Below, in pieces: positions 785 through 44,078 of a DNA stretch of 64,000 nucleotides (positions are counted from its first letter, which is position 1; every line of letters begins with the position of its first letter). The position numbers and the translations under genes were made by a program. The notes beneath the pieces were generated by a model that made no database searches, had not been told where the DNA came from, and was given only the letters and a program-made list of their open reading frames with translations. Source of the DNA: Parietichytrium sp. I65-24A (Eukaryota > Sar > Bigyra > Thraustochytrida > Thraustochytriidae). Where the stretch lies: contig BLSF01000079.1 of NCBI GenBank assembly GCA_012862575.1, forward strand, positions 62,001 to 126,000, in the 5' to 3' direction.

Positions 785-2320
785 CTACCGACTACTCACC
801 ATCATATTGCTTTTAGCCTGCTTTTGCGCTTGAATCCGAGCTGATTGTCTCTTTGGCGGAGACTCTGGGCTCAATTCTTTCCCATCCGCTCTCCCACGCT
901 TACCCCTCGTTTCTGGTTCTTTATTTGCATGGTTTTCCTTGTCCATGGTCTCGTCGTCCTTCTGCACCTTGCTGTTCACTTTGGCTGTCTTCTTCGCACG
1001 GGGCCTTTCCTTGCGGACCTCCGCTTTCCCATCTTCTAGCTCCTTCGCAGGCTCATCATCGCTGACCTCCTGCTCCTTTTTCCTGGTGTTGGAACGAGTT
1101 GACGTGACCGCGCGAGTGTCTTTTTTAGTTTTTTTTTTTGGCTGGCGAGCTGGTGGCTTGTACTCCTCTTCCGCCTGCTCGCTTCCGCTGTCATCCTCCA
1201 CCTCGTAAACCTTCTTCGCAGGTTGTGCCTTTTTCGGGTTTGTCTTGGTCGCCTTCTTGTCCGTTGCTTTCGGGGCAGCAGCACTGGTAGCACCAGCAGC
1301 CGTCGCGGCGCGCTTTCCAGATCCACGGCCCTTCTTCTCAGAGCCGCCCCACTCCAGCTTCCGCGTGACCAGAGTTGTAATGTCGCCATCCTTGACCTTC
1401 AAAAAGTCCAAAAACAAGTTGAGCAAAAACGTGTAGTCGGGCTTGTCGTGCAGCCCGAGGGACCATACGTGGGCAAAGTAAGCCTCGATTACCTTGGCGC
1501 CTTGGGCCTTGTCAAGCAGCGCAGCGACTGAAGCGGGCGTGAACGACTGCTTTGCCTCCAAGGTAGCCGCCTCGCTCTTCGCATCCTTCCACGGCAGGTG
1601 TCCAAGCAGCTGCCACAAGACCACGTAACCGAGTGACTCCAAGTCATCGCGTGGTGCCGGCGGAGCGCTCTGGTGAATGTTCTTGCTCATAAACATCGGC
1701 GTGCCACAGGGCGGTGCGGGGTCCTCGGTCTGGCGCCCAGTGTGGAGGATGAACTTGAATACTGCGCCGAAATCCACGAGATACGCGCGGCCCGCCCTGT
1801 CCCCGGGTCCCATGAGCACATTCTCCGGCTTGAGGTCGCGATACACGTACCCGATGCTGTGCAGATCTCTGAGCCCGGCCAGCAGCTGCGCCGCCACGCT
1901 GAACGCCGTTTCCGGTGGGACGCCATGTTTGGCATTCTCCACGAGCTTCTCCACCGTGTCGCCGAGCTTCTCCATCACCAGGAACGTATACTCCGTGCCG
2001 GCCTGGAACTTCCACGCCACCGGACCCGGCGTCTCCGCCAAGCACATTTCCGCCAGCCGGTGCTCCTTCAGGATCCTGTACATCTGGTACTCCTGGCTCA
2101 GCAGAACGGACCCGCTGACCCCTTTGTTCCTCCGCTTCTTCGAAGGCGCCTGCGTCTCCGCCACCTTGACCACCCACGACCGCGACTTGACGTGCTCCAG
2201 ATCGCGCTCCTGATGCGACGACGCCGACCCTACGAACTCGCACGACAACACCTCACCGTACGCACCGCTTCCCACCAACTGCCCCACGCGCCACGGGCCC
2301 AGCGACGACGGGACCACCAT
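785..2320 (-). CDS. CK1/VRK-group Ser/Thr protein kinase with long basic tail
   Basis: Intronless 511-residue protein kinase. The glycine loop is at residues 15-24 (GSGAYGEV), the ATP lysine at K52 (VVKVA), the catalytic loop at 161-167 (RDLKPEN, D162) and the Mg-binding DFG at 183-185. A GTPMFMS segment followed by RDDLESLGYV is the hallmark of the casein kinase 1 superfamily (CK1, TTBK, VRK), which lacks the usual APE motif. Residues from about 325 to the end are rich in Lys, Glu and Ala, with several basic clusters of nuclear-localisation type, so a nuclear or chromatin role is likely. A 60-residue insertion-like segment with KKRR lies after the glycine loop. The start is the first Met, just before the conserved GPWRVGQLVG. 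Which CK1 subgroup it belongs to is uncertain; the basic tail is reminiscent of VRKs, but the catalytic loop is more CK1/TTBK-like. Confidence 0.85.
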   Translation of the reverse strand: MVVPSSLGPWRVGQLVGSGAYGEVLSCEFVGSASSHQERDLEHVKSRSWVVKVAETQAPSKKRRNKGVSGSVLLSQEYQMYRILKEHRLAEMCLAETPGPVAWKFQAGTEYTFLVMEKLGDTVEKLVENAKHGVPPETAFSVAAQLLAGLRDLHSIGYVYRDLKPENVLMGPGDRAGRAYLVDFGAVFKFILHTGRQTEDPAPPCGTPMFMSKNIHQSAPPAPRDDLESLGYVVLWQLLGHLPWKDAKSEAATLEAKQSFTPASVAALLDKAQGAKVIEAYFAHVWSLGLHDKPDYTFLLNLFLDFLKVKDGDITTLVTRKLEWGGSEKKGRGSGKRAATAAGATSAAAPKATDKKATKTNPKKAQPAKKVYEVEDDSGSEQAEEEYKPPARQPKKKTKKDTRAVTSTRSNTRKKEQEVSDDEPAKELEDGKAEVRKERPRAKKTAKVNSKVQKDDETMDKENHANKEPETRGKRGRADGKELSPESPPKRQSARIQAQKQAKSNMMVSSR

Positions 2321-4283
2321 CCTCCCTCACTTGCAACTGTACTCTCTCTCTCTCTCTATTTCTCTATTTCTCTCTCTCTCTCACGCTCTCTCCACCGCCC
2401 AGGTCTTCTATGCAACCACGCCGCCTTTTTACTTGTATCTTGTTACTTGATCCTTGTTGCTTATTACTTTTGGTACTTGGTACTTGTTTCAAGGCGCCGC
2501 ACTCAAATGTTACGCGACCACGACCACTCTGGGACGCTCGGGGACAGTTGTGCGTACTCGAGTACACTTGCCTTGGTTCACTCGGTTCACTCAGTTCACT
2601 CGGTTCTTCGGATCTGAATTCTGAATTCTGAAATTCTGGTTTTGGAACCAGTCCACTACGCCTCCCTACGCTTCACTTACGTCATTTCAGCGACCACCGT
2701 GACTAGGACAGGGGTAGCGGTTACTGTGGAAGGGGTAGACCTGTAGAGGTAGATAGATAAATGATGTAATGCTGAGATAGTCTGATGGGTAGATTATGGC
2801 GTAGGGTGTTTGAAATGGTAGTTTGGGGAACTGTTTCTCTCTCTCTTGGCTTGTATCAAAGCCTCTATAAGTCTCTATAATCCCTGTACGAATCTGTAAG
2901 AATATATAAGACGGAGTAGCTAGTGGGATACTGAATAGAGTACCTAACTGGAGTAGAGAAATTTCTGTTCTGAGAGTAGTAGCTCTACTAGTCCAGATGC
3001 TTCGGATGGCTTGCCCCCGGAAAGGTCCTGCCAGCAAATCAAGATCTAAATTTGGTTTACTTTTTATGTTGGACAATACGAAAAACGTACAGCTGAAGAG
3101 GTTGGCTTCTGACTGATGCCGATTGCCGATACTCCAGTGGAGACTTTCGCGCGAAGAAACTCTAAGGATGATGCGTTCGCCGAGGAGGAGCTGAGTAGTT
3201 TGAACGAGCTCTCATCTTGGTGCAACCCGCGGCGCAGATGAATGCTTTATGAAGGCTGCTTTTGCGATTTTACTCACCTGCGGCATCCGAGCACACATCA
3301 TTCAAAAGAACTTGGTAGCGTTCTTCTCGGAGAAAGGCCTGCCCTCGTTGAGTTTTTGAATCCAGACTTCATGCAGTAGAGCATCGAAAATGTGGACACG
3401 CACTTATACTCCTCTGCTTTCCTGTAGGCAACGAACTCGCGCGTTCCAGAGTTCACAGTCACCGCTCACAATCTCAGATTTTGCAGATTTCGCAGAGAGG
3501 CGAGTTACAATGTCCCGTGCAACCCACGCAAATGTGTGCAAAGAAATGCAAACAAACAGTCATCCCTCCAATCCCTCCTATGCAGATACTGCACTCTGCC
3601 AAAAATGGACTTATTGTATGCGCCTAAATAAATTAGTATGGGACTTGGCACACACCTCGTACGATCGTAATGAATTCGTAAGTACGAGTACCTCACACAG
3701 TAATACTTGTACTAATTCGGCATCCTATCATGGAGGCTATCCATACACTAGTGAGTGTGTCTGTCCAATAGAGCATCTGCGCACATCTGCGCTCGTCCAG
3801 ACAAGGCTGATGCTTTTGTTTAAGATATTCTTTAGAAATTCTATATTCTAAAATCTGAGCTCTGGTGTTATGGTGTTATGGAACACATCGACAGAGGAAG
3901 GAGACAGAAAATAGGGACTCGGAAAAGTGGACTCTGTGCCGGGCCTACTGGGTCATGGATTTTTAATTACTGGGTCACACGTGCTGGGTCATGGATCTTT
4001 ATTTACGGTTGATGAAAGGGAAGCAGCGACATCGGAGAGTGCGTGCATGATCTTCTTCTAAGTTATGCTGAAAAGTAGCGCTCGAGTATAGTCCAAGAAT
4101 GTTGGACGAGGGAAGTTCTGTCGCTCAGCCATGCTCAGCCCACGCAACTGTTATGGCATGTTCTCACTGGGCAAGGTAGCCAAGGTAGCAAGATGGGCGC
4201 CTTGACTTGAGCAGTCGCCGAAGGAGCGGTAGTCGAGGAATATACAAGACCGAACCGGCGAGCGAGTATTTTGGGAAGAGCGA
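2321..4283. other. Divergent intergenic region with short repeats
   Basis: About 2 kb separate the CK1-like (-) and dynamin-like (+) genes. It holds the CT tract, a short GGTTCACTC-type tandem near 2577-2604, a TCTGAAT iteration at 2611-2638, and AT-rich sequence. Open frames of 129 and 153 codons (2687-3076 minus, 3390-3851 plus) have no recognisable domain or plausible composition and are not called. A minus-strand patch around 3290-3380 reads a short protein-like segment ending near a GTGAGT, which could be a decayed exon. It is too short to name. Confidence 0.4.
2341..2392. repeat. (CT)n low-complexity tract in CK1 5' region
   Basis: A nearly pure CT tract interrupted by ATTT lies 20 bp upstream of the CK1-like start codon. 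On the gene's own strand it is a GA-rich leader. Similar tracts precede several other genes here, so it may be core promoter or 5' UTR sequence. Confidence 0.8.
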
Positions 4284-6998: not shown

Positions 6999-9900
6999 TT
7001 AGAGGTAGGCCAGCTTGAGAATGGCCTGGAACAGCTCTGAAAAGGCGGTCAAAGTCAGCGGAGCACCTGCTTCCAAGCCCAGCTCACTCAGGGCCTCGCT
7101 GATGTCGCCCTCGGTAGGTTTCTCTATCCCGAGCTCTGCCGTCAGCTTGTCCGTGACGGCTTCGAATTTCTCGTCGCCTGACTGCACCGTCGCTTCGGCA
7201 GAACCAGCAGAGCTGATAAAGAGTGGCAGCACCGTTTCCCGCATCTTTTCCAAATCATTGCCACACAGCGTGATGAGATCGTCTGCTCCAGGACCATCCG
7301 CGTCCTCGAGGCCAAGATCTTCTCCGTTGCTCTCGGTGAATCGATTCAATCGATCCTGACACACAGACAATGATTCTTGAGTTGCTTGTGTGCTAGGGTT
7401 GTCCTCGCCAAACACCTTGCTACGAATTTGCAAAGCTTCTTCAAAGCTCGTCTGGGCCTGGACGAGCGCTTTGTGAAGCGCTGCAAGGTTCTCATCTAGA
7501 TCCCGCTCTGCATCTCCTCGGTCCGCAGCAGACAGTTTGGCGTTCTCGGACGCCTCCTTGTTCTCGTTGGCCAGATGGGCTTCTCGACTTGCCAGGTCGA
7601 AAAAGAGTGTTCCCAAGTTCTGCAAAGCCGTAGCCAATTCGGGATGTTCCTCGCCAACTTTTACGCGGTAGATCTCGCACGCATCCTCGTAATGCCTTTG
7701 GGCTTGCTCGAAATGTTCTCCCTCCTCCTTACCATCTCCTCGCCTACTCGCGGCTGCTGCTAACTCTTGCCTTACTGAACCAATGTTGGAGCAAGTTGCT
7801 GCGTATGCCGGATGGTCAGCGCCAAGCACAATTGCTTGGATGTCTTTGGCCTTTGTGTGAAACTTAAGAGCAAGAGCATAATCCTTGAGAAATGAATAAA
7901 CCAACCCCGTGTTGTTTGCCGCTGCCGCTACATCGGAATGGCAAATTCCCAGGGCCGCTTCCAAATTCTTTGCGCCTTCAGTTACGAGTTTCAGCGCAGC
8001 CTCACCGGCATCGCTCGACTTGTTGTCTTTCAGCAAGAGCATCCCCATGTCTATCTGCGAGCGTGCGACAGAAGGATGAGTCGGGCCAAAAGTCTTAACT
8101 CGAATGTCCAGGCTTCGCTGATACCATTTCGTAGCCTCTTCAAACTTGCCGAGCTCTTCAAATAAAAGGCCCATGGCACGGGCAGTTTGCGCCACATCAC
8201 GATGGTGTTCCCCGCAGAGGTTCTCTTTGATTGCCAACGACTGCCTGTACATGTCTTCGGCCTCACTATAGTTTCCGGTTTTCATGTACAACATCGCCAG
8301 GTTATCATAACCCATCGCAATCTGTCTGGTGTTCTCACCGTACAGGGCCTTGTCTACTTCGAGAGCCCTTTTCTTGAGATTCATGGAGATGTCATACTTG
8401 CAGAATACGCGCTCATAAACGTCCGCAAGCTCGCTGCACGATATGGAGATCTTGTCGTGAATCTTTCCGTACAACGCCGTGTTGAAGGAGATCTCGTCCT
8501 GCCGTACAGTGACTGCGCCATCATACATACTCAAGAGAACGAGCAGGGATGCTACGCAGTCCATCACGATCGCCGCGTTTTCCACTCTCGTTCTCAGCTC
8601 GGTTTCGGTTCCGCCTTGCAACACTGCGAGGTCTTTAAGCTCGATGCCTTTCTTCACTTCAAGCGCCACCGCCAAGAGATAATTCTCAACCTTGTTAATC
8701 GGGCGATGAGTCTCTGGATCTACGAGAGCCTCTGCTTCTTCGGTAGAGAGGCTGGCACACTTTTCGGTCCAATGAGCTTCGATGTCCCTCCAATAGTTCA
8801 CTAACTCGTACTTTTTCGACTCGTCCGAAAGCATGATTTGAAGAACATTTTGTTGGCACAAATAATTGGCCAAGCGAGTCAAGTGGCCCGACATTGCCAA
8901 ATGGTATGGATATTCCCGCAGCTGCCTGCTAAATCTAGCCTCATAATCTTCCTTGGTAAGATTTTCCGCCTCCGTCAAAGACGCAAAATAGTCCGCCAAA
9001 CGAAAATGAATAGCTTGATTCGCTTTGACCAAGTCTGCGCCCAAAATAGCGGACACTGCTTCCTTTGCCGCGTCGTGGAAAAGACGAAGGAATCCGGAAG
9101 TCGAGCTCAGTTGCTCGCGGATACCAAAGAGTAGCTGCGTTAAAAGTCTCACCTGTGCGTCGCTCTCCACACTAAATTCTTTGAGGTTCGTGCCCGCTAG
9201 CCAGGTGTCGCCATCTTGTGGTGGCGCTGGTATCTTGCGCGACAAGGCTTCCCGAAGCTCCTGGTCGCTGATTCCATCGCGACAGCGTAAAATAATTCCG
9301 AGTGCCCACACCGTGATGTCCTCGGAGCACTCTTGAGCCATGCGCCCCATGACGAGCTTGTACAGCTGTGGATTTGTCCTCGCCTCGAGAAGCTTGGACA
9401 AGTGCTTGGTGAGCTCAAAAAAGTTGCCAAACAGACGTGCTTCGTCCAGTAATGTCCGAAGGAACAGAGGATTCTGAGCAGCTTCAACTTTGAGTACCAT
9501 GCCGATTTGCTCCTCGTCGAGCTTCTTTGCGTGCTCGGCTAGGTAGCTTACGATCACCTTTCTCTGCTCGCTTTGTTCCAGTTCAGAGATGGTTGCTGTC
9601 TCCCACTTGCGGTCCTTCCAATATTTCAAGGCTATTGCGTCCAATCCATCAGAAGGGTTTCGACGCTTGAAGAAGAGTTGCGTGGAGCTTAAGATAGCCT
9701 CAGACTCTCTCTTTGTGGCGTCAAGGTCTTTCGAGAACGACGAATTGCTCGCCTGGTCCTTAATGGAACACAGAAAGGGCAGCCCTTGCACGCGAGGAAG
9801 CCAAAACAACGTCCGAGCGTTCCCTTTGTCTTCAAGCTGATCTAGTCCATCGAGCACCAACACGATGGGGCTACCAGACTCTGCGGATTTCGTTCTAGCT

Positions 9901-11672
9901 GCCACAAGAATGTCCGGAAGTATTTCCACAACCTTTTCGTCGTCGAGCATCAACACCTTTTCTGCAAGGAGTTGGTAGTCGTTCAGTGGTACATACTCCT
10001 TCCCGTCTTTGTCGGCTAATAATTGCTGCATTTTTTCCCACTTTTGAACCTTCGCATCAATATCAGAAAACTCGCTCAAATCAATGCCGAGGTTGCTGCA
10101 CAAGAAAAAAATGATCCTTCGGATGATGTGAATGTGATCTGCGCTCTCCGTGGTGCAACCAATGTAATGGGTGAATACTGCGGCGTCGGGATGCAACGCT
10201 TTGAACTGAGAAGCCCAGTTCGCTAACAGCGCTGATTTTCCCATTCCTGAAGGCCCAGTGATAGCCAGCGAGCGCTTGTCTTGCACAGCCTTTTCTATAT
10301 TGTCAAACGCATTTCCGTTGGCAATGTACCCCATCCTCCTCGACGCGGCAAATGCCTCATGAGTGAGCGCTACAGCTTCCCAGTTGGTAAACTTGGACTC
10401 GTCCACCGGAAACTCTGCCTCAATTGCTTTGGCAAGATCCTTCACGAGCTGATCGGATAACTCCTTCACATTTGAGTACTTGCAAATAAACGACGGAAAT
10501 TTTTCCTCAATCTCCTGCTTGAGACGGTCCTGTCCCTTCTTGGCGTGCTCCGACTCCGCTTCGTACGCAGGCTTGTCGATGTCGCTAATTTGATCTCCCA
10601 TTTGCTGCTTGAACTCCTCGTGGTTGCGAAAATAGAAGGTTGTGAAGCCTGCCTGTGAAGGCTGCAATAGCGCCCCATGGAGCATTTCCAGCTCAGTCAC
10701 CGATCTATCCCGAAACTGCTTTACCCAGGGATAAAGTTTTTCTCCCACGTCCATGGTGGTGTTGAGCAGCTCATCAGTCCTGCTGGGGTCCAGATGCCAG
10801 CCGTACCGCTCTCCGAGCATTCCTACAAAAAAAGGACGGCAGTCGTCGATCTCCTGAAGGCACAGTTTCACAACGGCACCACCGCTACTCTCCTCGCTGG
10901 TGACTCCCCAACGCAGGTCCACAAACACGATTGTCACCCCTCTAGCTTCTCCGAGTTTGCGCAACTGCGGCAAAGCATGGCGCATGAGGTAGTCTCTTTC
11001 CAAAGCGAAGTCTCGAAATGTGGACGACACGAACACACGCACCGTACGAGCCTGCATGAGCTTCTGTTTATTTCGTTTCAATGTCAACTGCGTGGACTCC
11101 TCGTGATCTTTCAACTCTTGCGACGCTCCAGTCTCCTCATGAAGTGGCTCCATGCTCTGCTCTGCTTTCGGAGCCAGAACCATCGGGCCTTTCATCTTAA
11201 ACGAAGCCCCTGGCTTTTTAACATTCCCTTCCTCACCGCTCGAGTCAAGTCCTCGTGGCGGTTCAAGGGATATTGGCCCCTTCATCTTGAACGAAGCTCC
11301 GGGCTGTCGAGAGGGACCATTTTCCTCCCCGACCGCGTCCAGAGAGGGCTTCATAGGTTCGAGCAACACTGGGCCCTTCATCTTGAACGAAGCCCCTGGC
11401 TGACGAATCGGCTGTTCCTCTCCAACCATATCCAACCTGGCTTTCATAGGTTCGAGCACCAACGGGCCTTTCATCTTGAACGACGCCCCTGGGGCACTTG
11501 CTCCTCCACCGCCGCGATCGTCCGCATGAGTGCTTTCCGCGGCACGAATTTCTTGCGTCGGAGCGACTTGATTTTTCTTGCTCGCAGCTCCTGCAGCTCC
11601 TGCTGTGGCCGAGGCATCGGTTTTGGCGCCAGGCTCGTTTGCCACGCGAGGTTTGCTGGAGCACGAGCCCAT
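6999..11672 (-). CDS. DUF4062 / P-loop NTPase / TPR protein, nephrocystin-3-like
   Basis: Intronless 1557-residue protein. It begins MGSCSSKP, a strong N-myristoylation site with a following Cys, as nephrocystin-3 also begins with a myristoylated glycine. Four degenerate repeats of about 31-33 residues follow (61-170), each with the invariant core PGASFKMKGP. A DUF4062 domain starts at about 211 (VRVFVSSTFRDF) with VDLRWGVTSEES. The NACHT/STAND-type NTPase has Walker A GPSGMGKS (473-480) and a Walker B-like VLVLDGLDQLED near 600-613. Kinesin-light-chain-style TPRs fill about 1060-1450. A short acidic C-terminal region ends the chain. In animals this architecture localises to the ciliary inversin compartment, so a ciliary role is inferred. 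Other DUF4062-NTPase-TPR proteins exist in protists, so orthology to NPHP3 needs a tree. Confidence 0.75.
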   Translation of the reverse strand: MGSCSSKPRVANEPGAKTDASATAGAAGAASKKNQVAPTQEIRAAESTHADDRGGGGASAPGASFKMKGPLVLEPMKARLDMVGEEQPIRQPGASFKMKGPVLLEPMKPSLDAVGEENGPSRQPGASFKMKGPISLEPPRGLDSSGEEGNVKKPGASFKMKGPMVLAPKAEQSMEPLHEETGASQELKDHEESTQLTLKRNKQKLMQARTVRVFVSSTFRDFALERDYLMRHALPQLRKLGEARGVTIVFVDLRWGVTSEESSGGAVVKLCLQEIDDCRPFFVGMLGERYGWHLDPSRTDELLNTTMDVGEKLYPWVKQFRDRSVTELEMLHGALLQPSQAGFTTFYFRNHEEFKQQMGDQISDIDKPAYEAESEHAKKGQDRLKQEIEEKFPSFICKYSNVKELSDQLVKDLAKAIEAEFPVDESKFTNWEAVALTHEAFAASRRMGYIANGNAFDNIEKAVQDKRSLAITGPSGMGKSALLANWASQFKALHPDAAVFTHYIGCTTESADHIHIIRRIIFFLCSNLGIDLSEFSDIDAKVQKWEKMQQLLADKDGKEYVPLNDYQLLAEKVLMLDDEKVVEILPDILVAARTKSAESGSPIVLVLDGLDQLEDKGNARTLFWLPRVQGLPFLCSIKDQASNSSFSKDLDATKRESEAILSSTQLFFKRRNPSDGLDAIALKYWKDRKWETATISELEQSEQRKVIVSYLAEHAKKLDEEQIGMVLKVEAAQNPLFLRTLLDEARLFGNFFELTKHLSKLLEARTNPQLYKLVMGRMAQECSEDITVWALGIILRCRDGISDQELREALSRKIPAPPQDGDTWLAGTNLKEFSVESDAQVRLLTQLLFGIREQLSSTSGFLRLFHDAAKEAVSAILGADLVKANQAIHFRLADYFASLTEAENLTKEDYEARFSRQLREYPYHLAMSGHLTRLANYLCQQNVLQIMLSDESKKYELVNYWRDIEAHWTEKCASLSTEEAEALVDPETHRPINKVENYLLAVALEVKKGIELKDLAVLQGGTETELRTRVENAAIVMDCVASLLVLLSMYDGAVTVRQDEISFNTALYGKIHDKISISCSELADVYERVFCKYDISMNLKKRALEVDKALYGENTRQIAMGYDNLAMLYMKTGNYSEAEDMYRQSLAIKENLCGEHHRDVAQTARAMGLLFEELGKFEEATKWYQRSLDIRVKTFGPTHPSVARSQIDMGMLLLKDNKSSDAGEAALKLVTEGAKNLEAALGICHSDVAAAANNTGLVYSFLKDYALALKFHTKAKDIQAIVLGADHPAYAATCSNIGSVRQELAAAASRRGDGKEEGEHFEQAQRHYEDACEIYRVKVGEEHPELATALQNLGTLFFDLASREAHLANENKEASENAKLSAADRGDAERDLDENLAALHKALVQAQTSFEEALQIRSKVFGEDNPSTQATQESLSVCQDRLNRFTESNGEDLGLEDADGPGADDLITLCGNDLEKMRETVLPLFISSAGSAEATVQSGDEKFEAVTDKLTAELGIEKPTEGDISEALSELGLEAGAPLTLTAFSELFQAILKLAYL
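11163..11492 (-). repeat. Four in-frame tandem repeats in the NPHP3-like N-terminus
   Basis: Protein repeats begin at residues 61, 92, 124 and 154. Each opens with PGASFKMKGP followed by a hydrophobic-rich segment, Glu/Ala-Pro and a GEE cluster. The core is invariant at protein level while the linkers vary in length (31, 32 and 30 residues between starts). That suggests selection on the core and not recent DNA duplication. Confidence 0.85.
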
Positions 11673-32809: not shown

Positions 32810-33780
32810 TAAATTTGGCGAGTCTGGCATTTCAAGGCTCTGTTATACGGAAACGTATGTTTTATGCGTGTATCACCTAATGTGTGCACCCAAACGCGCA
32901 TGTGTGTACACTGTACTGCACTAACAACTGTTGGTTTGGTCACTCTCTTTGATTTCTGCATCGCCGCGCAATTTTTGCAACCTGAATCGTCGACCGCACC
33001 ATGAAAAGATTCTGTTTAGTCGTCAGTAAGGGTCATGAGTGCACCTGTTCGTTCCACTGGAAGAAAGCCACGTTGCCATGCTGTGAGAACTTCTCATCAG
33101 AGTCAAAACGTCAAATTTGAAACTTTACGCGACACAAATGGCGAACGAGACAAAAGCTTCTACGAGCAATTTATGATGTCTAGTAGTTGACGCTGACGTT
33201 GACATTTTCGGGCAAAAAACTAGCTGACGTGTTCGCAATGCTCGTGTACTTTTAAAATGAAACAAAATGAATTTTGGCCATCTTAACAGTAAGTTCGGAT
33301 TTCAAGGGTAGGGTTGTCGGAAAATAAACTTCTTCGGTTTGCTCACCTGGCCCAGACGCCGTTGGTGGATCCTTTTCTATTTTCTTCCGAGAACCAAAGT
33401 TCCGATCTTCTCGGCTTCGCCATCACAAATTGTGACTCCGCTCTGCAGTAACAGCACGCCAATTCTTCCGAAAAAGACAAACTTGAAGCAGTCAAAATTT
33501 GCCCGTCTTCAGTCAAAATTTGCCCGTCTTCAGTCAAAATTTGCCGTCTTCAGGAAAATTTTGACTTGAGATGTGCACTCTATTTCACGTATTATGAGAT
33601 ACTCTAGCATTGGTCCACATCGTTCCCGCAGGCCGGGTAGGCCAATTTGTGCACCCCTTTGCTATAACTTCTTACCATCTCATACCTTGGAAAGTCTTGA
33701 GTGCATTCCTTGACCGGGTCACAGATAGCTCAAGTCAGCAAACCTGAATTGTCACACATGCACTTAACGGAGGGTTCGCA
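32810..33780. other. Intergenic region with a 21-nt tandem repeat
   Basis: Between RIO1 (+) and G8 copy A (+). A unit beginning AGTCAAAATTTGCCCG is repeated three times at 33490-33552, the last copy lacking one C. The end of the region is the copy A promoter. No gene is seen. Confidence 0.5.
33490..33552. repeat. 21-nt tandem repeat, three copies
   Basis: Three adjacent near-identical 21-nt units, upstream of G8 copy A. Confidence 0.85.
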
Positions 33781-36700
33781 ATGAGGTTTGCTCTTGCGGC
33801 AGTTGCCGCATTCGCGATCGGCGAGACGCAGGGTGCCGCGTGTCCAACGGTGTCTCCGACATCCTTCTCGCTGCCAACCGATACTGGCTTCTCCACCAGC
33901 AACTTCGTTGGCCTTGATGACCTCGCGGAGAAGTTCACTCTTCGCCATCTCGACAACGACTTGCCCTCCCAGTGGCTTGCACAGTCCGACTGCCCATACT
34001 CTGCATCCGGGCTTGTGCATTGGCACGATAGTTCAACATGGACGTCTGGCGTCGTCCCTGCCGCCGGAGAGGATGTTGTCATCCCAGAGAATACCAAGGT
34101 CCTCGTGAGCCACTGCTCGCTGCTCTCGTCTCCATATAATATCATCACCGTCCCAGAGTCGAGCGAGCTCATCTTCAACGACCAGACCATCGAAATGCAT
34201 GCTCACGGTCTCGAGGTGGCCGGAAAGCTCGTCATCGGGTCCGAGTCCTGCAAGATCAAATCAAAGGTGACGATCACACTTTACGGTGATCGACCTGCTT
34301 CAGCGGTAGAGGAAGCGTACAAAGGAATTCACATCCACGGGAATGGTGTACTCGATATGCACGGCGCACAGTTCTATCCTTCCTGGGCTCGGCTCGCCAC
34401 CACCGCCGCTGCTGGAGACACCTCCATCTATCTATCTCACAAAGTCAATTGGCAACCTGGACAAGAGTTGGTCGTCCTCGGGACGGAGCTCAAGGACAGT
34501 CGGGACTGGCACCATAATGAAGTGCGGATCATCGCGAGTGTGGAGTTGTCAGGAGAGTTTTCCAAAGTTACACTCACACAAGCACTGGAATACACGCATC
34601 ATAGTTCCACAAATTACCAGGGCGAAGTTGGCCTACTCTCTCGACAGGTTGTAATCCAAGGCGATCCGTCCTCGGAGCCTACTGACACCGACGATGCTGT
34701 TTGCAGCGACTCCACTTTCAGCTCCTACCCGTGCGCCAACAAATACCTCACCGGCTACGGTGGTCATGTGATGGTTCACGGAAGCAGTGCTGTTGGCCGA
34801 GTGTCTGGCGTGGAGTTCTTTCGGATGGGACAGACCAACTTTCTGGCTCGCTACCCTTTCCACTTTCACATTCTTGGCGACGCCGGCGCCGACTCATACA
34901 TCCAGGACTCGAGTGTGCACAGATCCTACTTTCGGTGCATCACCGTTCACGGCACCAATAAAACATTGGTTCGCAACAACGTAGCGTATGACGCGATTGG
35001 TCATTGCTACTATCTTGAAGATGGTGTGGAAGTCGAGAATACGTTGGAGTACAATCTTGCAGCCCATGTCCACTTTATTGGATACCCACCAACATCGGGA
35101 AACCAGTACCTGAGCGACTACTACAGTAGTGCAAACCTTCTCATTCCAGCGGACGTGACAGCAAGTGGGTTCTACATCACCAACGCATACAATCACTACA
35201 TCGGGAATGCGGCGAGCGGAGGATACAGCGGATTTGCTTTTGTAAATGTCCCTTTGCCATTGGGAGTATTTCGCTCTTTGACATTGCCTTCAGGTCTCAA
35301 TCCGTCGCAAAGACCAGTGTTGGAGTTTGATTCGAATACTTGCCACAGCACCGGCGTGTGGTGGTCTCAGGCAGGCTGTGTGTATGTAGGAGGCTTGCTG
35401 AAGTACGAATCTACCTCATCGGACGTGATGACGTACAATCCAGGACGCCAGACGTCCGGACGAGACACGAAGTGCGAAACAAGCAGCGGAACATTCACGG
35501 CTTGCCCGCTGATCTTGAGTAACCTCAAGATCTTCCTCGCCAACTGGGGCGTGAACAACTGGGGGGCTCGCGGAGAATTCTACAACGTTGAGACGTACGA
35601 TGTGCAGCGTGGCCTCGCCATCATTGGTACTCACTATGTGAACAACTACCTGGCAGTGTGCCGCACAGGATTCACGCCAGCAACGGTCGGAACCAAGTGG
35701 CTCGAGAACCGCTTCTTCAAATCGGAGTACGTCGGATTCGAGTTCTATGACACGTATCAGTACCACATCTTGTCGGACATCACCTTTCGCAACTGCGGAT
35801 CAACCAGCCGAGATGCCGCGATTTGGCAGGGATTGACCCACTCGTTCCGCTGGGTCCCAGGCCCGATGCAAATCACCAAGAGAGTGACATACGAGAACTG
35901 CGACATGACTATGAGGTTCCGAGGTTCCGTGGAAAAGCTCGTGTCGGTGAGCGGATGGTTGACGAACTGGTTCGATGCAGACGGCACGGCGTTCGAGACT
36001 GGGGTACCGACCATTGTGGGCAACTCGCGCGGAGGTTATCAGTGGTGGAACTATGATCCGGAGTGTACTGAAACTGATGGCGGCTGGTTCGTATGTCCAA
36101 AGTATTCGCCACGCAGCGGCGCGCGGCGTAACGTCGCTCGAGTGAGTTTTGTTCACGACTCGGAGCTGGTGACAGCCATGGAGAACGGAGAAGTGTGTCC
36201 AAACGCAGCATCGACTTCACCACCGTGCGAGGAGCTTGGTCGAGTCACACACCTTGGGTCTCCGGTGAGCGACGGCATCCCACTGACCCCAAATCCTGCC
36301 GTGACGGGTGTTGCGAACTCTCTGGGATGGTACTTTGTGCTTGACAAGGGTTCGCCGGTGAGGGCGGAGTTTTCCGGGCTGCAGCTGGACGAGGAGGATA
36401 CGGCGATGGTGGTCCTTCCGTATCCAAAGTCGTCGTCCTTTACTATAACGTACGAGGCAGCGTATTGGTGCCAGCCTCAGTGGTATCAAGCGCCCAGAGC
36501 TTGCTCAGAGACTTTCACGGCGGTCGGGTCAGCAGCAGAAGTACGGTCAAGTCTGGGAAACAAATACTACTTCGACAGTAGCCGAGGACTTTTATTTTTA
36601 AAGTTGACTCCTCAGAATCAAAATTACGTGCGTTTCGATGGCGAAGACAAGTACTTGTCGTACTACGAGAAGGAGGACGAACGGATCCCGAATGTGATCT

Positions 36701-37032
36701 GGTTTGGAAAGATTGTGGTCGAGGCAACGTGTCCACTGAATGCTACAGACAGTAAATACTGCGAGTACTCGCACAACGATGCGAATGTGGAGGACCCTTG
36801 CTCCCTATACGAGGAAGCTGGTTCTGAGCTCGTAGCTGTTAATGACTGCTTGGCTGAATCGAGCTCGTTTGCGCCGAGCACGTTTGCGCCGAGCCCGATT
36901 GCGCCGAGCACGTTTGCGCCGAGCACGGTTGCGCCGACCGATGTTGAAGGCAGCAGTCTGGGGTCGGTGTCGCGCGGCTTACGGCTGGTTCCTTGGATTA
37001 CGTCGTTTGTATTAACCGTGTTGACCACATAA
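33781..37032 (+). CDS. Secreted G8-domain / parallel beta-helix protein, copy A (CEMIP/PKHD1L1-like)
   Basis: A 1083-residue protein. Residues 1-18 (MRFALAAVAAFAIGETQG) are a signal peptide. A G8 domain begins near residue 82, with WHDSSTWTSGVVPAAGEDVV and the following ILNHDC-like VLVSHCS, as in CEMIP, TMEM2 and fibrocystin-L. A conserved segment after it (LSHKVNWQPGQELVVLGTE) and then PbH1-type repeats (about 300-620) suggest a right-handed beta-helix. The family in animals includes hyaluronan-degrading proteins, but the substrate here is unknown. The end has SPT/APST repeats and a hydrophobic stretch (LVPWITSFVLTVLTT) resembling a GPI-attachment signal. The core is shared without gaps with copy B (39670-42733). 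Differences lie only in the outer parts of the shared block. Confidence 0.85.
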   Translation: MRFALAAVAAFAIGETQGAACPTVSPTSFSLPTDTGFSTSNFVGLDDLAEKFTLRHLDNDLPSQWLAQSDCPYSASGLVHWHDSSTWTSGVVPAAGEDVVIPENTKVLVSHCSLLSSPYNIITVPESSELIFNDQTIEMHAHGLEVAGKLVIGSESCKIKSKVTITLYGDRPASAVEEAYKGIHIHGNGVLDMHGAQFYPSWARLATTAAAGDTSIYLSHKVNWQPGQELVVLGTELKDSRDWHHNEVRIIASVELSGEFSKVTLTQALEYTHHSSTNYQGEVGLLSRQVVIQGDPSSEPTDTDDAVCSDSTFSSYPCANKYLTGYGGHVMVHGSSAVGRVSGVEFFRMGQTNFLARYPFHFHILGDAGADSYIQDSSVHRSYFRCITVHGTNKTLVRNNVAYDAIGHCYYLEDGVEVENTLEYNLAAHVHFIGYPPTSGNQYLSDYYSSANLLIPADVTASGFYITNAYNHYIGNAASGGYSGFAFVNVPLPLGVFRSLTLPSGLNPSQRPVLEFDSNTCHSTGVWWSQAGCVYVGGLLKYESTSSDVMTYNPGRQTSGRDTKCETSSGTFTACPLILSNLKIFLANWGVNNWGARGEFYNVETYDVQRGLAIIGTHYVNNYLAVCRTGFTPATVGTKWLENRFFKSEYVGFEFYDTYQYHILSDITFRNCGSTSRDAAIWQGLTHSFRWVPGPMQITKRVTYENCDMTMRFRGSVEKLVSVSGWLTNWFDADGTAFETGVPTIVGNSRGGYQWWNYDPECTETDGGWFVCPKYSPRSGARRNVARVSFVHDSELVTAMENGEVCPNAASTSPPCEELGRVTHLGSPVSDGIPLTPNPAVTGVANSLGWYFVLDKGSPVRAEFSGLQLDEEDTAMVVLPYPKSSSFTITYEAAYWCQPQWYQAPRACSETFTAVGSAAEVRSSLGNKYYFDSSRGLLFLKLTPQNQNYVRFDGEDKYLSYYEKEDERIPNVIWFGKIVVEATCPLNATDSKYCEYSHNDANVEDPCSLYEEAGSELVAVNDCLAESSSFAPSTFAPSPIAPSTFAPSTVAPTDVEGSSLGSVSRGLRLVPWITSFVLTVLTT

Positions 37033-38114
37033 ATGATGGGATCATCTCAACACACTAGAATTCGGCTGCGTCTCCGTACGCGTGTTGATCATTAAATTCA
37101 ATCCTGACTTGGGAATAAATCACATTCATACATTTCCGACTCGGGAATAAGAAGAAAAAAGGTCATGTACACATTTACTGAATTGTGACAATATGTATAA
37201 ACAACCGTAAAATCGCACGAATTTCGATGCGCTGCTGCTTGCATCCACTCACAGCACGTTTGGTCATTCAGGCCGCAAAACACCATAGTCAGGAGCTTCG
37301 CTTCCATTCCATATGTCTGGAAGTGGCGATGAACACCTCACACCGAGAGGTAGTTTCAATCGACCGAACCTCGATCTCTCACTCGCTCACTTGCTCATTC
37401 GCTCATTTGCAGACAAGCATTCACAGTCAATCAAGCAATCGATGCAATCACAACTCGTCCACAAGCAAACTATGTGTGCAATCATAGCCTCGGCGTATCT
37501 CTTTCATTCAGAATTCAGAAGACATGCGTTCCGGGCGCCCAGCAAGCACGAAACCAAGTCCAAGTCAACTCAATTTTCAATCGATATAAATTCATTACAG
37601 CTGGCAATTGCCCGCCTCGGAAGAGCTTGCGATGGTTGCAGCATCCCTCGGTCCGGCACAGATCGGCCGGCCCGCAACGACCTGGATTGCATTGCAAGGC
37701 CGGAAAGCTGGGACAAGGCAAGAGAGATGGCTGCCATTGAAGGAAACAAGTGCTGCCCACACCGACCACAGTGAACCTTTCCGTACTCCGTACGGTCCTT
37801 CTCACTCGCCCATCCGACCGACTTTGCTTTCGGCTCGGCTAGTGGACACAGACACACGCAGACAGACATAGGGGGAGGCAGTGAGGGAGGGAGCCTAGGA
37901 AGAGCCCATCTGTGCGCCGGGATGCTGAGAAAGAATTGGATCGCGGGCAGCTCTTGCACCTCCCGGAACACTGGGATTGGTACGATCAGGAGTATTGAGG
38001 TGGCACTCCGCTCCAGAGTAGCTGGTCAGCTGCGCCCCGGCGGGGCAAGGAAGGCAGCGAGGCGGGGGATGAGAAGGCGTTGATTCGCTAATGCTCACGA
38101 ATGCCATATGGAAT

Positions 38115-38145
<31 letters not shown>

Positions 38146-39526
38146 AAAGAATGAAGTAATGGGGAAAAGAAGTACGTCCCTCTTTGTCACTCGAGAGAAA
38201 TAATCAGTCTCCATCAAAGATTGCACGGCCTAATTGCCGGGACTCAGCGATGCTGGCGAGGTAACGTACAGAGTACAGGTACAGGGTACTGAGCGCAGCT
38301 TGCATCTCGTGCATCCAGCAGTTTCAAGTGGTGTCAAAGAGTGCCAAAAGATTGGCCTGGCTTCTGTGTATCTCCCTCGCCGGGATGTGTCCCTATCGCG
38401 TCGGAGGTGTGCGGCCCCGTCTCTCTACGACAGCGATCGAGACAGGGACTTTGAGAGCCAATTGAAAGAGCTTGCAATTGCAAAAGCGAAAGCAATAGCA
38501 AAAGGCAAAGTTAAAGTTAAAGTTATCTCAGCCTGGCACGTCTTGCAACGTTCACTTTCAGAGGCACCTGCAGACCGTCCATCCGTACATCCATCCATCA
38601 TCCATCCATCTCCCTTTCGAGCTGGCTCCCGCGCTGATTCGCGGAACGAAGGACAATGTCTTCGTGTTTGTTGGTGCGCATCAGTCAATATCGTCCACAT
38701 ACTCCCGCAATACTTTTTTGTTTTACACTTTCGCTCATCTTCCATTTCCATCATTAAAGTTTACATTTTCACCTTCTTGCATTGTCGCATTCTTCCGTTC
38801 TTACAGTTGCATCGAAAATTACTCTGTGTTTGGTTCCTTCGCACGTGGGGATGTGCAATTTCGAGCTTCCCACAGTGCACAATTTAGGTATATTATGCCC
38901 CCACCATCGCGTTTATATCTAGCAACATGCGAAGAGATGAAATGCGTTCCTCACTTTTGGGGGGCACAGGGCAGTTTATGAAGAGCTGGTCTTCCTAGGT
39001 GTGTGCCTATTATATATTACAAGACTTGGTGAAAGAGCAAGAAGAAGGGAGAATTAGCCACCCCTCTCCTCCATCCCACTCGCTCCATGGAATGAACGTT
39101 CCCTCGTAGAGCGAAGAGCATGTTGGCGAAGAGCGAAGAGGTTGTGGAAGTCACCCGCAGCATACGTGTGAAAAGATTGCAAGACTCTCTCTCTTTCCCT
39201 TTGATAGCAGACCGATGGCCTTCTCTAGTAGTGGTAACCGGATAGGGGCCGCCCCATTTGTGCCGAGAGCTCATGACTCACCCATTCCGAAGAGGTCCGA
39301 ACTTGCCGATGGAACTCACATTGTCAAGACTCATGCATTTCGCAGATGGTCGACTCGGACACTTGAGCTCGGAACGTATCATCAAATAAGTCGCTGATAC
39401 TCAACGGCGAATTCCCGGGTCCGGGATTGAATCTTTTCCTCTATTTGCTGACTTAAGAGCTTTGAAAACATGGAACGAAGAGGCGGAACTTCTCGTACTC
39501 CGCAGAAGAAAAGGGGCTTGGCTACC
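37033..39526. other. Spacer between the tandem G8 genes
   Basis: About 2.5 kb with no convincing gene. It has a (GAAA)n tract at about 38115-38149, an ATTCAGA iteration at 37505-37522, a GTTAAA iteration near 38510 and CCATC repeats near 38580-38610. Frames up to 217 codons (38234-38887 plus) are Ser/Arg-rich and lack domains. I found no similarity by eye to the upstream region of copy A, so the duplication did not obviously carry its promoter. Confidence 0.45.
38115..38149. repeat. (GAAA)n microsatellite
   Basis: About eight GAAA units in the spacer between the G8 genes. Confidence 0.9.
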
Positions 39527-39557
39527 ATGGCGTTATTTGTTCTTGCACTTCTTGCCT
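39527..39557 (+). CDS. Candidate signal-peptide first exon of G8 copy B
   Basis: An ATG in an optimal context (ACCATGG) opens MALFVLALLA followed by one base and a GTGAGT donor at 39558-39563. An acceptor CAG at 39677-39679 restores the frame exactly, giving MALFVLALLAFAAFAIGE, a strong signal peptide. The implied intron is 122 nt, like others in the window. The alternative is a continuous start at 39658 (MWKQLAAVAAFAIGE), which is a weaker signal peptide. Transcript data would decide. Confidence 0.45.
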
Positions 39558-39657
39558 GTGAGTCCAAGCTTGCGTAAGTAAAAGAAGAAATGGACTTTGA
39601 CGAGTTCAAATGCAAGGCAAACCCCGAACAGTGACCTCGTATTTTTTGAAGACGGAA

Positions 39658-42600
39658 ATGTGGAAACAACTTGCGGCAGTTGCCGCATTCGCGATCGGCG
39701 AGACGCAGGGTGCCGCGTGCCCGACGGTGTCTCCGACAACCTTCTCGCTGCCAACTGATACTGGCTTCTCCACCAGCGGCTTCGTTGGCCTTGATGACCT
39801 CGCGGAGAAGTTCACTCTTCGCTATCTTGACAACGACTTGCCCTCCCAGTGGCTTGCACAGTCCGACTGCCCATACTCTGCATCCGGGCTTGTGCATTGG
39901 CACGATAGCTCAACATGGACGTCTGGCGTCGTCCCTGCCGCCGGAGAGGATGTTGTCATCCCAGAGAATACCAAGGTCCTCGTGAGCCACTGCTCGCTGC
40001 TCTCGTCTCCATATAATATCATCACCGTCCCAGAGTCGAGCGAGCTCATCTTCAACGACCAGACCATCGAAATGCATGCTCACGGTCTCGAGGTGGCCGG
40101 AAAGCTCGTCATCGGGTCCGAGTCCTGCAAGATCAAATCAAAGGTGACGATCACACTTTACGGTGATCGACCTGCTTCAGCGGTAGAGGAAGCGTACAAA
40201 GGAATTCACATCCACGGGAATGGTGTACTCGATATGCACGGCGCACAGTTCTATCCTTCCTGGGCTCGGCTCGCCACCACCGCCGCTGCTGGAGACACCT
40301 CCATCTATCTATCTCACAAAGTCAATTGGCAACCTGGACAAGAGTTGGTCGTCCTCGGGACGGAGCTCAAGGACAGTCGGGACTGGCACCATAATGAAGT
40401 GCGGATCATCGCGAGTGTGGAGTTGTCAGGAGAGTTTTCCAAAGTTACACTCACACAAGCACTGGAATACACGCATCATAGTTCCACAAATTACCAGGGC
40501 GAAGTTGGCCTACTCTCTCGACAGGTTGTAATCCAAGGCGATCCGTCCTCGGAGCCTACTGACACCGACGATGCTGTTTGCAGCGACTCCACTTTCAGCT
40601 CCTACCCGTGCGCCAACAAATACCTCACCGGCTACGGTGGTCATGTGATGGTTCACGGAAGCAGTGCTGTTGGCCGAGTGTCTGGCGTGGAGTTCTTTCG
40701 GATGGGACAGACCAACTTTCTGGCTCGCTACCCTTTCCACTTTCACATTCTTGGCGACGCCGGCGCCGACTCATACATCCAGGACTCGAGTGTGCACAGA
40801 TCCTACTTTCGGTGCATCACCGTTCACGGCACCAATAAAACATTGGTTCGCAACAACGTAGCGTATGACGCGATTGGTCATTGCTACTATCTTGAAGATG
40901 GTGTGGAAGTCGAGAATACGTTGGAGTACAATCTTGCAGCCCATGTCCACTTTATTGGATACCCACCAACATCGGGAAACCAGTACCTGAGCGACTACTA
41001 CAGTAGTGCAAACCTTCTCATTCCAGCGGACGTGACAGCAAGTGGGTTCTACATCACCAACGCATACAATCACTACATCGGGAATGCGGCGAGCGGAGGA
41101 TACAGCGGATTTGCTTTTGTAAATGTCCCTTTGCCATTGGGAGTATTTCGCTCTTTGACATTGCCTTCAGGTCTCAATCCGTCGCAAAGACCAGTGTTGG
41201 AGTTTGATTCGAATACTTGCCACAGCACCGGCGTGTGGTGGTCTCAGGCAGGCTGTGTGTATGTAGGAGGCTTGCTGAAGTACGAATCTACCTCATCGGA
41301 CGTGATGACGTACAATCCAGGACGCCAGACGTCCGGACGAGACACGAAGTGCGAAACAAGCAGCGGAACATTCACGGCTTGCCCGCTGATCTTGAGTAAC
41401 CTCAAGATCTTCCTCGCCAACTGGGGCGTGAACAACTGGGGGGCTCGCGGAGAATTCTACAACGTTGAGACGTACGATGTGCAGCGTGGCCTCGCCATCA
41501 TTGGTACTCACTATGTGAACAACTACCTGGCAGTGTGCCGCACAGGATTCACGCCAGCAACGGTCGGAACCAAGTGGCTCGAGAACCGCTTCTTCAAATC
41601 GGAGTACGTCGGATTCGAGTTCTATGACACGTATCAGTACCACATCTTGTCGGACATCACCTTTCGCAACTGCGGATCAACCAGCCGAGATGCCGCGATT
41701 TGGCAGGGATTGACCCACTCGTTCCGCTGGGTCCCAGGCCCGATGCAAATCACCAAGAGAGTGACATACGAGAACTGCGACATGACTATGAGGTTCCGAG
41801 GTTCCGTGGAAAAGCTCGTGTCGGTGAGCGGATGGTTGACGAACTGGTTCGATGCAGACGGCACGGCGTTCGAGACTGGGGTACCGACCATTGTGGGCAA
41901 CTCGCGCGGAGGTTATCAGTGGTGGAACTATGATCCGGAGTGTACTGAAACTGATGGCGGCTGGTTCGTATGTCCAAAGTATTCGCCACGCAGCGGCGCG
42001 CGGCGTAACGTCGCTCGAGTGAGTTTTGTTCACGACTCGGAGCTGGTGACAGCCATGGAGAACGGAGAAGTGTGTCCAAACGCAGCATCGACTTCACCAC
42101 CGTGCGAGGAGCTTGGTCGAGTCACACACCTTGGGTCTCCGGTGAGCGACGGCATCCCACTGACCCCAAATCCTGCCGTGACGGGTGTTGCGAACTCTCT
42201 GGGATGGTACTTTGTGCTTGACAAGGGTTCGCCGGTGAGGGCGGAGTTTTCCGGGCTGCAGCTGGACGAGGAGGATACGGCGATGGTGGTCCTTCCGTAT
42301 CCAAAGTCGTCGTCCTTTACTATAACGTACGAGGCAGCGTATTGGTGCCAGCCTCAGTGGTATCAAGCGCCCAGAGCTTGCTCAGAGACTTTCACGGCGG
42401 TCGGGTCGGCAGCAGAAGTACGGTCAAGTCTGGGAAACAAATACTACTTTGACAGTAGCAGAGGTCTTTTATTCATAAAACTGACTCCTCAGAATCAAAA
42501 CTACGTGCGTTTCGATGGCGGAGACAAGTACTTGTCGTACTACGAGAAGGAGGACGAACGGATCCCGAGGGTGATCTGGTTTGGAAAGATTGTGGTCGAG

Positions 42601-43329
42601 GCAACGTGTCCACTGAATGCTGCAGATAGTAAATACTGCGAGTACTCGCACAATGATGCGAATGTGGAGGACCCTTGCTCTCTATACGAGGAAGCTGGTT
42701 CTGAGCTCGTAGCTGTTAATGACTGCTTGGCTGGAACAGGCACGATCTCTCCCACGAATCTGCCAACCAGTGCCCCTTCCGAAACTCCTACAAAAACTCC
42801 GACCAAGGCACCTACAACCAGGTCGCCTTCGAAAGCTCCGACCAAGGCACCAACGACAAATTCTCCTTCGAAAGCTCCAACCAAGGCGCCTACTACCAAA
42901 TCGCCCTCGAAAGCTCCGACCAAGGCACCTACAACAAAATCTCCTTCGAAAGCTCCAACCAAGGCGCCTACCACCAAATCGCCCTCGAAAGCTCCGACCA
43001 AGGCACCGACGACCAAATCGCCCTCGAAAGCTCCGACCATGGCGCCTACAACCAAATTTCCTTCGAAAGCTCCGACGATGACACCAACGGTTGCAGTAAC
43101 GAATGGAGATGGGCTAGAAAAGGATGCCCCAACAAGCGCGCCAACCACAGCACGTCCGACCAAGAGACCGACTTCTGAACCAACCTCGCGTCCGACCAAA
43201 ACGTCGCGCCCAACGATTGCACCAACCTCGCGCCCAACGAAGAGGCCAACTTCTGAGCCAACCTCGCGCCCGACCAAAACTTCGCGCCCAACGATTGCAC
43301 CAACATTCCGTCCTACAAAATCATCTTGA
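39658..43329 (+). CDS. Secreted G8-domain / beta-helix protein, copy B, with PT-rich tail
   Basis: Paralogue of copy A. From the Met at 39658 it has 1223 residues; with the candidate upstream exon, 1226. It contains the same G8 domain and beta-helix region. The alignment with copy A (33793-36856 to 39670-42733) has a constant offset of 5877 and no gaps. By eye 9 differences fall in the first 240 bp and 16 in the last 326 bp, with none in the 2498 bp between. After the shared block the protein is different: seven 13-residue units of SPSKAPTKAPTTK type, then two 26-residue units of RPTKRPTSEPTSRP type, with no hydrophobic anchor. Such PT-rich tails are probably O-glycosylated and cell-wall or matrix bound. 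So copy B looks secreted or wall-bound where copy A looks membrane-anchored. Confidence 0.85.
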   Translation: MWKQLAAVAAFAIGETQGAACPTVSPTTFSLPTDTGFSTSGFVGLDDLAEKFTLRYLDNDLPSQWLAQSDCPYSASGLVHWHDSSTWTSGVVPAAGEDVVIPENTKVLVSHCSLLSSPYNIITVPESSELIFNDQTIEMHAHGLEVAGKLVIGSESCKIKSKVTITLYGDRPASAVEEAYKGIHIHGNGVLDMHGAQFYPSWARLATTAAAGDTSIYLSHKVNWQPGQELVVLGTELKDSRDWHHNEVRIIASVELSGEFSKVTLTQALEYTHHSSTNYQGEVGLLSRQVVIQGDPSSEPTDTDDAVCSDSTFSSYPCANKYLTGYGGHVMVHGSSAVGRVSGVEFFRMGQTNFLARYPFHFHILGDAGADSYIQDSSVHRSYFRCITVHGTNKTLVRNNVAYDAIGHCYYLEDGVEVENTLEYNLAAHVHFIGYPPTSGNQYLSDYYSSANLLIPADVTASGFYITNAYNHYIGNAASGGYSGFAFVNVPLPLGVFRSLTLPSGLNPSQRPVLEFDSNTCHSTGVWWSQAGCVYVGGLLKYESTSSDVMTYNPGRQTSGRDTKCETSSGTFTACPLILSNLKIFLANWGVNNWGARGEFYNVETYDVQRGLAIIGTHYVNNYLAVCRTGFTPATVGTKWLENRFFKSEYVGFEFYDTYQYHILSDITFRNCGSTSRDAAIWQGLTHSFRWVPGPMQITKRVTYENCDMTMRFRGSVEKLVSVSGWLTNWFDADGTAFETGVPTIVGNSRGGYQWWNYDPECTETDGGWFVCPKYSPRSGARRNVARVSFVHDSELVTAMENGEVCPNAASTSPPCEELGRVTHLGSPVSDGIPLTPNPAVTGVANSLGWYFVLDKGSPVRAEFSGLQLDEEDTAMVVLPYPKSSSFTITYEAAYWCQPQWYQAPRACSETFTAVGSAAEVRSSLGNKYYFDSSRGLLFIKLTPQNQNYVRFDGGDKYLSYYEKEDERIPRVIWFGKIVVEATCPLNAADSKYCEYSHNDANVEDPCSLYEEAGSELVAVNDCLAGTGTISPTNLPTSAPSETPTKTPTKAPTTRSPSKAPTKAPTTNSPSKAPTKAPTTKSPSKAPTKAPTTKSPSKAPTKAPTTKSPSKAPTKAPTTKSPSKAPTMAPTTKFPSKAPTMTPTVAVTNGDGLEKDAPTSAPTTARPTKRPTSEPTSRPTKTSRPTIAPTSRPTKRPTSEPTSRPTKTSRPTIAPTFRPTKSS
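42823..43089 (+). repeat. 39-nt (13-residue) PT-rich tandem repeat, seven units
   Basis: Units start at 42823 and every 39 nt to 43057. The first five differ mainly in synonymous positions (ACC/ACA, GCG/GCA); the sixth and seventh carry Met for Lys and Phe for Ser. Reading in the same direction as G8 copy B, it codes an extended, likely glycosylated stalk. The antisense strand stays open across it as a composition artefact. Confidence 0.9.
43153..43308 (+). repeat. 78-nt (26-residue) PT-rich repeat, two units
   Basis: Two near-identical units (43153-43230 and 43231-43308) of RPTKRPTSEPTSRP type, plus a partial third, form the end of G8 copy B. Confidence 0.88.
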
Positions 43330-43522
43330 GGGGCCCCCGCGTGCGCTCCACCACTGTGGATCCCGCAACTGTAATGATGATATATGCAATGATTGTCAAC
43401 CGATGACCAATCATGTGAACATACGCAACATTGTAAAATGAGTGAAAGTAATTCCAATGTATTTCAACGCAAGAACGGTCCCACAAGATACTCTGCCAAA
43501 CCACCTCTCATGTCTTGCTTTG

Positions 43523-43615
43523 TCATGTGTTGTGATGCGATGTGATGTGATATAATGTGATATGATGTGTTGTGTTGTGATGTGATATAATGTGATATGA
43601 TGTGATGTGTTGTAT
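43523..43615. repeat. TGTGATG/TATAATG minisatellite
   Basis: A T/G/A-only stretch in which a 27-bp segment (TGATGTGATATAATGTGATA and on to TGATGTG) occurs at about 43544-43570 and again at 43578-43604. Confidence 0.8.
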
Positions 43616-43925
43616 CTTGTTGTAATGTGATGTCTTGTCTTGCGTTGTCTTTTCCATCCCAGCCCAATACGCAAGTAAAAGTTAAAAAGCATAGGAGCAC
43701 CCCCTAGCACCCGTGCGCATGTAACATCCGCACATCCCCGCATACCATTCTCGGCTGGGGATCATATCATCCTATACCACAATTGTTCTTAATCCAGTGA
43801 TAAAGCATGACCTGACCTTAAGGTAACCACATGCGGCGCGAATAGTACCAGATAGCGCGTTTTTATCCGGTCACATCATCCTCGTGCAATTTCGCAATAT
43901 CCCCCTCTGGTGAAAACCATTAGCA

Positions 43926-43969
43926 AAGAGAGAGAGAGTACACCTGTGGGCACATAGAGAGAGAGAGAG

Positions 43970-44000
<31 letters not shown>
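43926..44000. repeat. (GA)n and (CA)n compound microsatellite
   Basis: Alternating GA, CA and GA tracts about 130 bp upstream of the SHIPPO start. Confidence 0.9.
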
Positions 44001-44047
44001 CGACGAATGCGAAGGTAGAGAGCAGCGCGTCGGGAGAGCGTGCGTTG

Positions 44048-44078
<31 letters not shown>

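Follow-up and report, generated by a model that had tools for sequence, protein, structure and literature searches.

Two neighbouring genes in the 64,000-bp stretch of Parietichytrium sp. I65-24A DNA analysed here (the window) encode proteins that share one type of head and end in different tails, and over most of the head their coding sequences do not differ at a single base. How did the middle of the pair come to be identical when the sequences on either side of it are not? An earlier note had described an ungapped alignment of 33793-36856 with 39670-42733 at a constant offset of 5877, with nine differences over the opening 240 bp, a following 2498 bp free of them and 16 over the final 326 bp, and had read this unevenness as a sign of gene conversion, or of an assembly artefact, rather than of a simple recent duplication. 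Our own alignment gives the same offset and exactly the same counts (25 differences in 3064 bp, 0 of them in the 2498-bp core). The expression 'diverged flanks', however, covers two layers. It holds for the edges inside the block, which have diverged by 4.4%, but outside the block homology is undetectable: identity falls to 16–37% in each 100-bp bin lying wholly outside it, which is the level expected by chance, and a blastn search of 28000-50000 against the window (7-base words, E 1e-3) detected no further match between the two gene regions. The features are listed in Table 1.

Table 1. Features of the two tandem genes (window coordinates)
Feature	Position	Strand	Description
Copy 1 gene	33781..37032	+	Uninterrupted ORF, 1083 aa
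Copy 1 protein			Signal-peptide-like start, CEMIP/TMEM2-type head, short S/P/A stalk, hydrophobic GPI-signal-like C-terminus
Copy 2 gene	39658..43329	+	Uninterrupted ORF, 1223 aa
Copy 2 protein			Head as in copy 1, long P/T/S/K tail, no hydrophobic C-terminus
Homology block, copy 1	33793..36856	+	3064 bp; homology undetectable on both sides
Homology block, copy 2	39670..42733	+	
Identical core, copy 1	34033..36530	+	2498 bp, about codons 85-917
Identical core, copy 2	39910..42407	+	
Left edge	33793..34032	+	9 differences in 240 bp; Ks 0.087, Ka 0.023
Right edge	36531..36856	+	16 differences in 326 bp; Ks 0.159, Ka 0.020 (computed over codons 36529-36855)
Copy 1-specific tail	36857..37032	+	APST-rich stalk and hydrophobic end LVPWITSFVLTVLTT
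Copy 2-specific tail	42734..43329	+	Rich in P/T/S/K; tandem units of 39 bp followed by two copies of a 78-bp unit
Inter-block stretch	36857..39669	+	Opens with the 176-bp copy 1 tail

The two start codons lie at the same offset as the block itself, although an alternative in-frame ATG at 39610 would extend the copy 2 protein to 1239 aa. Codons 2–4 and the upstream DNA differ between the copies, and the two tails are unrelated. The tandem units of the copy 2 tail span 42743-43297. Upstream of copy 1, at 33490-33551, a 21-bp unit (AGTCAAAATTTGCCCGTCTTC) is present in three consecutive copies, the third of them one base short as judged by eye. The stretch between the blocks was considered as a possible repeat or displaced copy and ruled out, its sole match in the genome being itself. 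Elsewhere in the window, at 6999-11672 on the minus strand, lies a gene for a 1557 amino acid nephrocystin-3-like protein with a DUF4062 domain, many TPRs and an AAA/NACHT-like region, the last of these below the Pfam cut-offs.

The clustering of differences is far beyond chance. When 25 differences were scattered uniformly over the 3064 positions, the longest clean run in 100,000 permutations was 1339 bp (median 431 bp) compared with the 2498 bp observed, for which the union bound is ~1e-17. Fisher tests of edges against core also reject even divergence, at 3e-19 for all sites and at 6.5e-13 for synonymous sites, which upholds the earlier reading that the pair is not the product of a simple recent duplication. 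The edges carry 16 synonymous and nine non-synonymous differences (Ks 0.127, Ka 0.021), a ratio indicating that both copies were under protein constraint before the last exchange; synonymous divergence is not significantly different between the left edge and the right (p 0.30), and no identical run within them exceeds 80 bp. At the density of differences found in the edges the core should contain ~110 differences, ~72 of them synonymous at the edge rate. It has no change in about 618 synonymous sites, giving an upper bound on Ks of 0.0049 (rule of three), so that its homogenisation is younger than the edges by a factor of at least about 26. The locus thus shows a tract of identity flanked by more divergent homologous sequence.

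What do the genes encode? Both proteins match the Pfam G8, CEMIP beta-helix and domain X models (PF10162, PF24606 and PF24605), in that order and above the curated cut-offs; the G8 domain that had been recognised from the letters alone is found in copy 1 with an E-value of 7.8e-26, and residue 86, where this match starts, lies beside the beginning of the identical core. The same three domains occur in human TMEM2/CEMIP2 (8c6i; PMC10206443) and in CEMIP/KIAA1199, and the TMEM2 ectodomain 8c6i is the sole solved structure matched by sequence at E 0.01 (phmmer E 2.6e-43), with conservation of the series RYPxHFH ... CITVHGTN ... GHCxxLEDG. Between the first two matched stretches the window protein has ~10 residues (210-221) where 8c6i has ~175 (166-342), the latter being the place of an inserted small beta-sandwich and lectin-like domain (PMC10206443). 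As the phmmer alignment leaves only those ~10 residues for a lectin-like domain inserted in the beta-helix, we class the window proteins as relatives with a CEMIP-type head rather than as full CEMIP or TMEM2 proteins; their tails, too, differ from those of TMEM2 and CEMIP. To judge from their sequences, the genes encode secreted, carbohydrate-enzyme-like proteins. Hyaluronan depolymerisation is disputed even for TMEM2 (PMC10206443). Structure prediction from the two window proteins alone gave a mean pLDDT of 29.6 and was unusable.

The hydrophobic segment at the C-terminus of copy 1 looks like a GPI signal. By hydropathy alone, the best 15-residue window at the N-terminal end of copy 1 scores 1.49 and that at its C-terminal end 1.73. 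In copy 2, a reading by eye of the three plus-strand frames across 42600-44061 revealed no hidden downstream exon of note that could supply a transmembrane helix. Copy 1 would accordingly be membrane-anchored and copy 2 released. The copy 2 tail and downstream DNA have 45 matches in the genome, including themselves. Most of the others fall in the 3′ microsatellite and three in the P/T tail at 67–74% identity, which points to no clear source for the tail.

G8 matches above the cut-off occur at five places in the genome: the two window genes, one on C3 and two on C22. Searching the genome with the core DNA yields four matches (the two copies, a 246-bp relic and a 77-bp match at 79%), and the protein search yields eight, of which two are the copies themselves, two are pieces of C3, two lie on C22 and two are pieces of the relic; neither search finds a third full copy. 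A scan of prokaryote and viral contigs confirmed no relatives. The paralog on C3 (88433-91573) likewise has G8, CEMIP beta-helix and domain X, with protein identities of 51% and 44% in its two pieces, but it lacks the identical core, matching at the DNA level at just 68–79%. Its frame is broken once, by a probable intron, and it ends in a cysteine-rich tail with a transmembrane-like segment; the two window genes and this one make three paralogs with three kinds of tail. The two distant G8-domain genes on C22, at about 392641 and 430050, lie ~37 kb apart in frames of 1586 and 1661 aa. The C3 paralog was also tried as an outgroup for the seven amino acid differences in the edges. At one of them C3 agrees with copy 1 (T) and at another with copy 2 (G); at a third its residue is acidic and nearer to that of copy 1, and at the other four it agrees with neither, a split that does not show which copy is derived. 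The relic, at C64:25825-26070, is an isolated piece of core lying between two long open frames. It is frameshifted by three one-base gaps and has two TGA stops in one translated piece, and 240 of 249 columns (96%) are identical to the core; the nine that differ indicate that core DNA drifts when it is unconstrained or unconverted.

Other gene pairs in the same genome served as controls, the matches compared being five of nine for tubulin, 12 of 12 for HSP70, three of three for SNF and two of 19 for actin. A pair of beta-tubulin genes on C45 (about 168388-171815), inverted with ~2.2 kb between the matched stretches, has 40 differences in 1313 bp and identical runs of 587, 233 and 116 bp. The 587-bp run lies towards the 3′ end of the coding sequence, next to a cluster of differences, and was reached in none of 20,000 permutations; homology ends near the coding limits and the flanks are at chance level. 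Two actin genes (C127:35000-37200 and C11:623900-626100) have 11 difference columns in 1205 (99.1% identical) and an identical run of 739 columns, with no homology found by blastn in the rest of the 2201-bp loci. One difference column is kept between runs of 739 and 152, and another between runs of 122 and 136. The HSP70 pair (C60/C86), by contrast, has diverged evenly: in one piece its 102 differences reach every one of the 13 bins, and the other piece is 87% identical. The C86 copy (1272-3112) is 87–92% identical to that on C60, and the match breaks between two frames near 2660. Two SNF transporter genes in tandem on C56 share 75% identity across 1854 columns, and further tubulin pairs are 83–87% identical. 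PF00078 is found at two places only, so there is no repeat family to act as a further control. The gene content of the 42.5-Mb genome, tubulin and actin included, is that of a eukaryote, and a search for PfaD, a marker of many thraustochytrids, gave four hits, every one of them below the cut-off. Patchy identity is therefore seen in two of the three further pairs examined along their length, which supports the view that conversion is habitual in this genome, or else that one assembly effect is common to the pairs.

The second of these would mean that the two cores differ in reality, and that the assembly graph collapsed them or that gap filling or polishing with short reads overwrote them, sparing the differences only at the ends, where unique flanks provide an anchor. 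The edges, at 240 and 326 bp, are close to the length of a short-read fragment; the absence from the edges of any identical run longer than 80 bp is what collapse based on k-mers would give, and such a cause might in principle lie behind the patterns of tubulin and actin too. Yet there is no N in the 64,000-bp window, nor in 79,803 bp of nine further loci, and the assembly has kept the actin differences between the runs of 739 and 152 and of 122 and 136, as well as the tubulin differences beside the runs of 587, 233 and 116. An assembly that preserves such differences does not simply merge near-identical copies, and merging would apparently require anchors of more than ~233 bp. Ordinary short reads can separate copies that are 4% divergent, and a core diverged to that degree would have been separable in the same way. 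With mostly synonymous divergence in the edges and differences kept in two other gene pairs, conversion is the better supported of the two causes that had been proposed at the outset, and we regard an artefact as unlikely.

A single recent duplication of the head block into a new context, with edges that have since changed at a higher rate or been supplied by a third copy, would explain why the flanks are unrelated, as though the block alone had moved. It predicts even synonymous divergence, however, which is rejected at 6.5e-13. The genome searches by DNA and protein offer no third full copy as a donor, and a landing in frame at both ends would itself be improbable; we consider this reading very unlikely. 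Least credible of all is that selection at the nucleotide level, for example through an overlapping function, holds the core identical. The core does encode conserved domains, but 0 changes at ~618 synonymous sites would demand constraint on nearly every base, the C64 relic has diverged, and the C3 paralog retains only 44–51% protein identity with DNA matches of 68–79%.

The best explanation, to which we give a probability of roughly 0.8, is repeated interlocus (ectopic) gene conversion between older tandem paralogs, with a last tract of ~2.5 kb. We infer both the mechanism and its two layers of events from the pattern of divergence. Two tandem paralogs with the same CEMIP/TMEM2-like head and different tails would from time to time have suffered a DNA break in one gene, with repair templated by its neighbour 5.9 kb away, and head-coding DNA would in this way have been copied between them repeatedly. 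Exchange would end where homology ends, leaving promoters, first codons and tails private to each gene. The 3064-bp block would go back to an earlier exchange, or else to a common origin of far greater age that exchange has maintained (the edges having a Ks of about 0.13), and a recent tract over at least the 2498-bp core would have reset its differences to zero. At an edge Ks of 0.13, neutral flanks copied together with the block should still be recognisable, yet they are not, which leaves two options: either nothing but the block was duplicated and it came to lie in frame on both sides, or the paralogs are older and their bodies have been exchanged more than once. We favour the latter, since block ends that are in frame and ATGs at equal offsets are to be expected of old paralogs with exchanged bodies.

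The event itself is ordinary concerted evolution, of a known kind. Widespread concerted evolution has been described in the tandem arrays of Trypanosoma brucei (PMC1855330), and the beta-tubulin paralogs of Leishmania have concerted coding regions and private flanks (PMC1533823). The likeness to the Leishmania loci extends to homogenised coding bodies, locus-specific flanks and purifying selection on the copies, although the Leishmania case was argued from three sequenced species whereas the window pair is read from a single genome (PMC1533823). Unlike beta-tubulin, the window gene specifies a CEMIP-like secreted or surface protein with private C-terminal tails. Among the papers listed by limited open-access searches, none reported gene conversion in a stramenopile, oomycete or labyrinthulomycete and none treated the G8 domain, PKHD1 or KIAA1199 in protists; we do not claim that either is absent from print.

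For annotation, the consequence is that divergence dates based on the core would be wrong. More broadly, the locus offers a clear instance of homogenisation stopping at the limit of a protein module. It is possible, although we hold the idea only tentatively and think it will more probably prove mistaken, that one enzyme head is kept identical on tethered and released proteins as a lasting arrangement, with conversion bounded by the head–tail junction whilst start regions and tails specialise, and that other paralogs in the genome, such as those of beta-tubulin and actin, evolve likewise. There is modest extra interest in finding an identical enzyme head on two differently tailed proteins that lack the TMEM2 lectin insert. 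No confident assignment of the TMEM2 active site proved possible (PMC10206443), and for this reason the window protein, as a natural lectin-less CEMIP/TMEM2 head, could serve to explore whether a beta-helix and domain X by themselves act on a polysaccharide.
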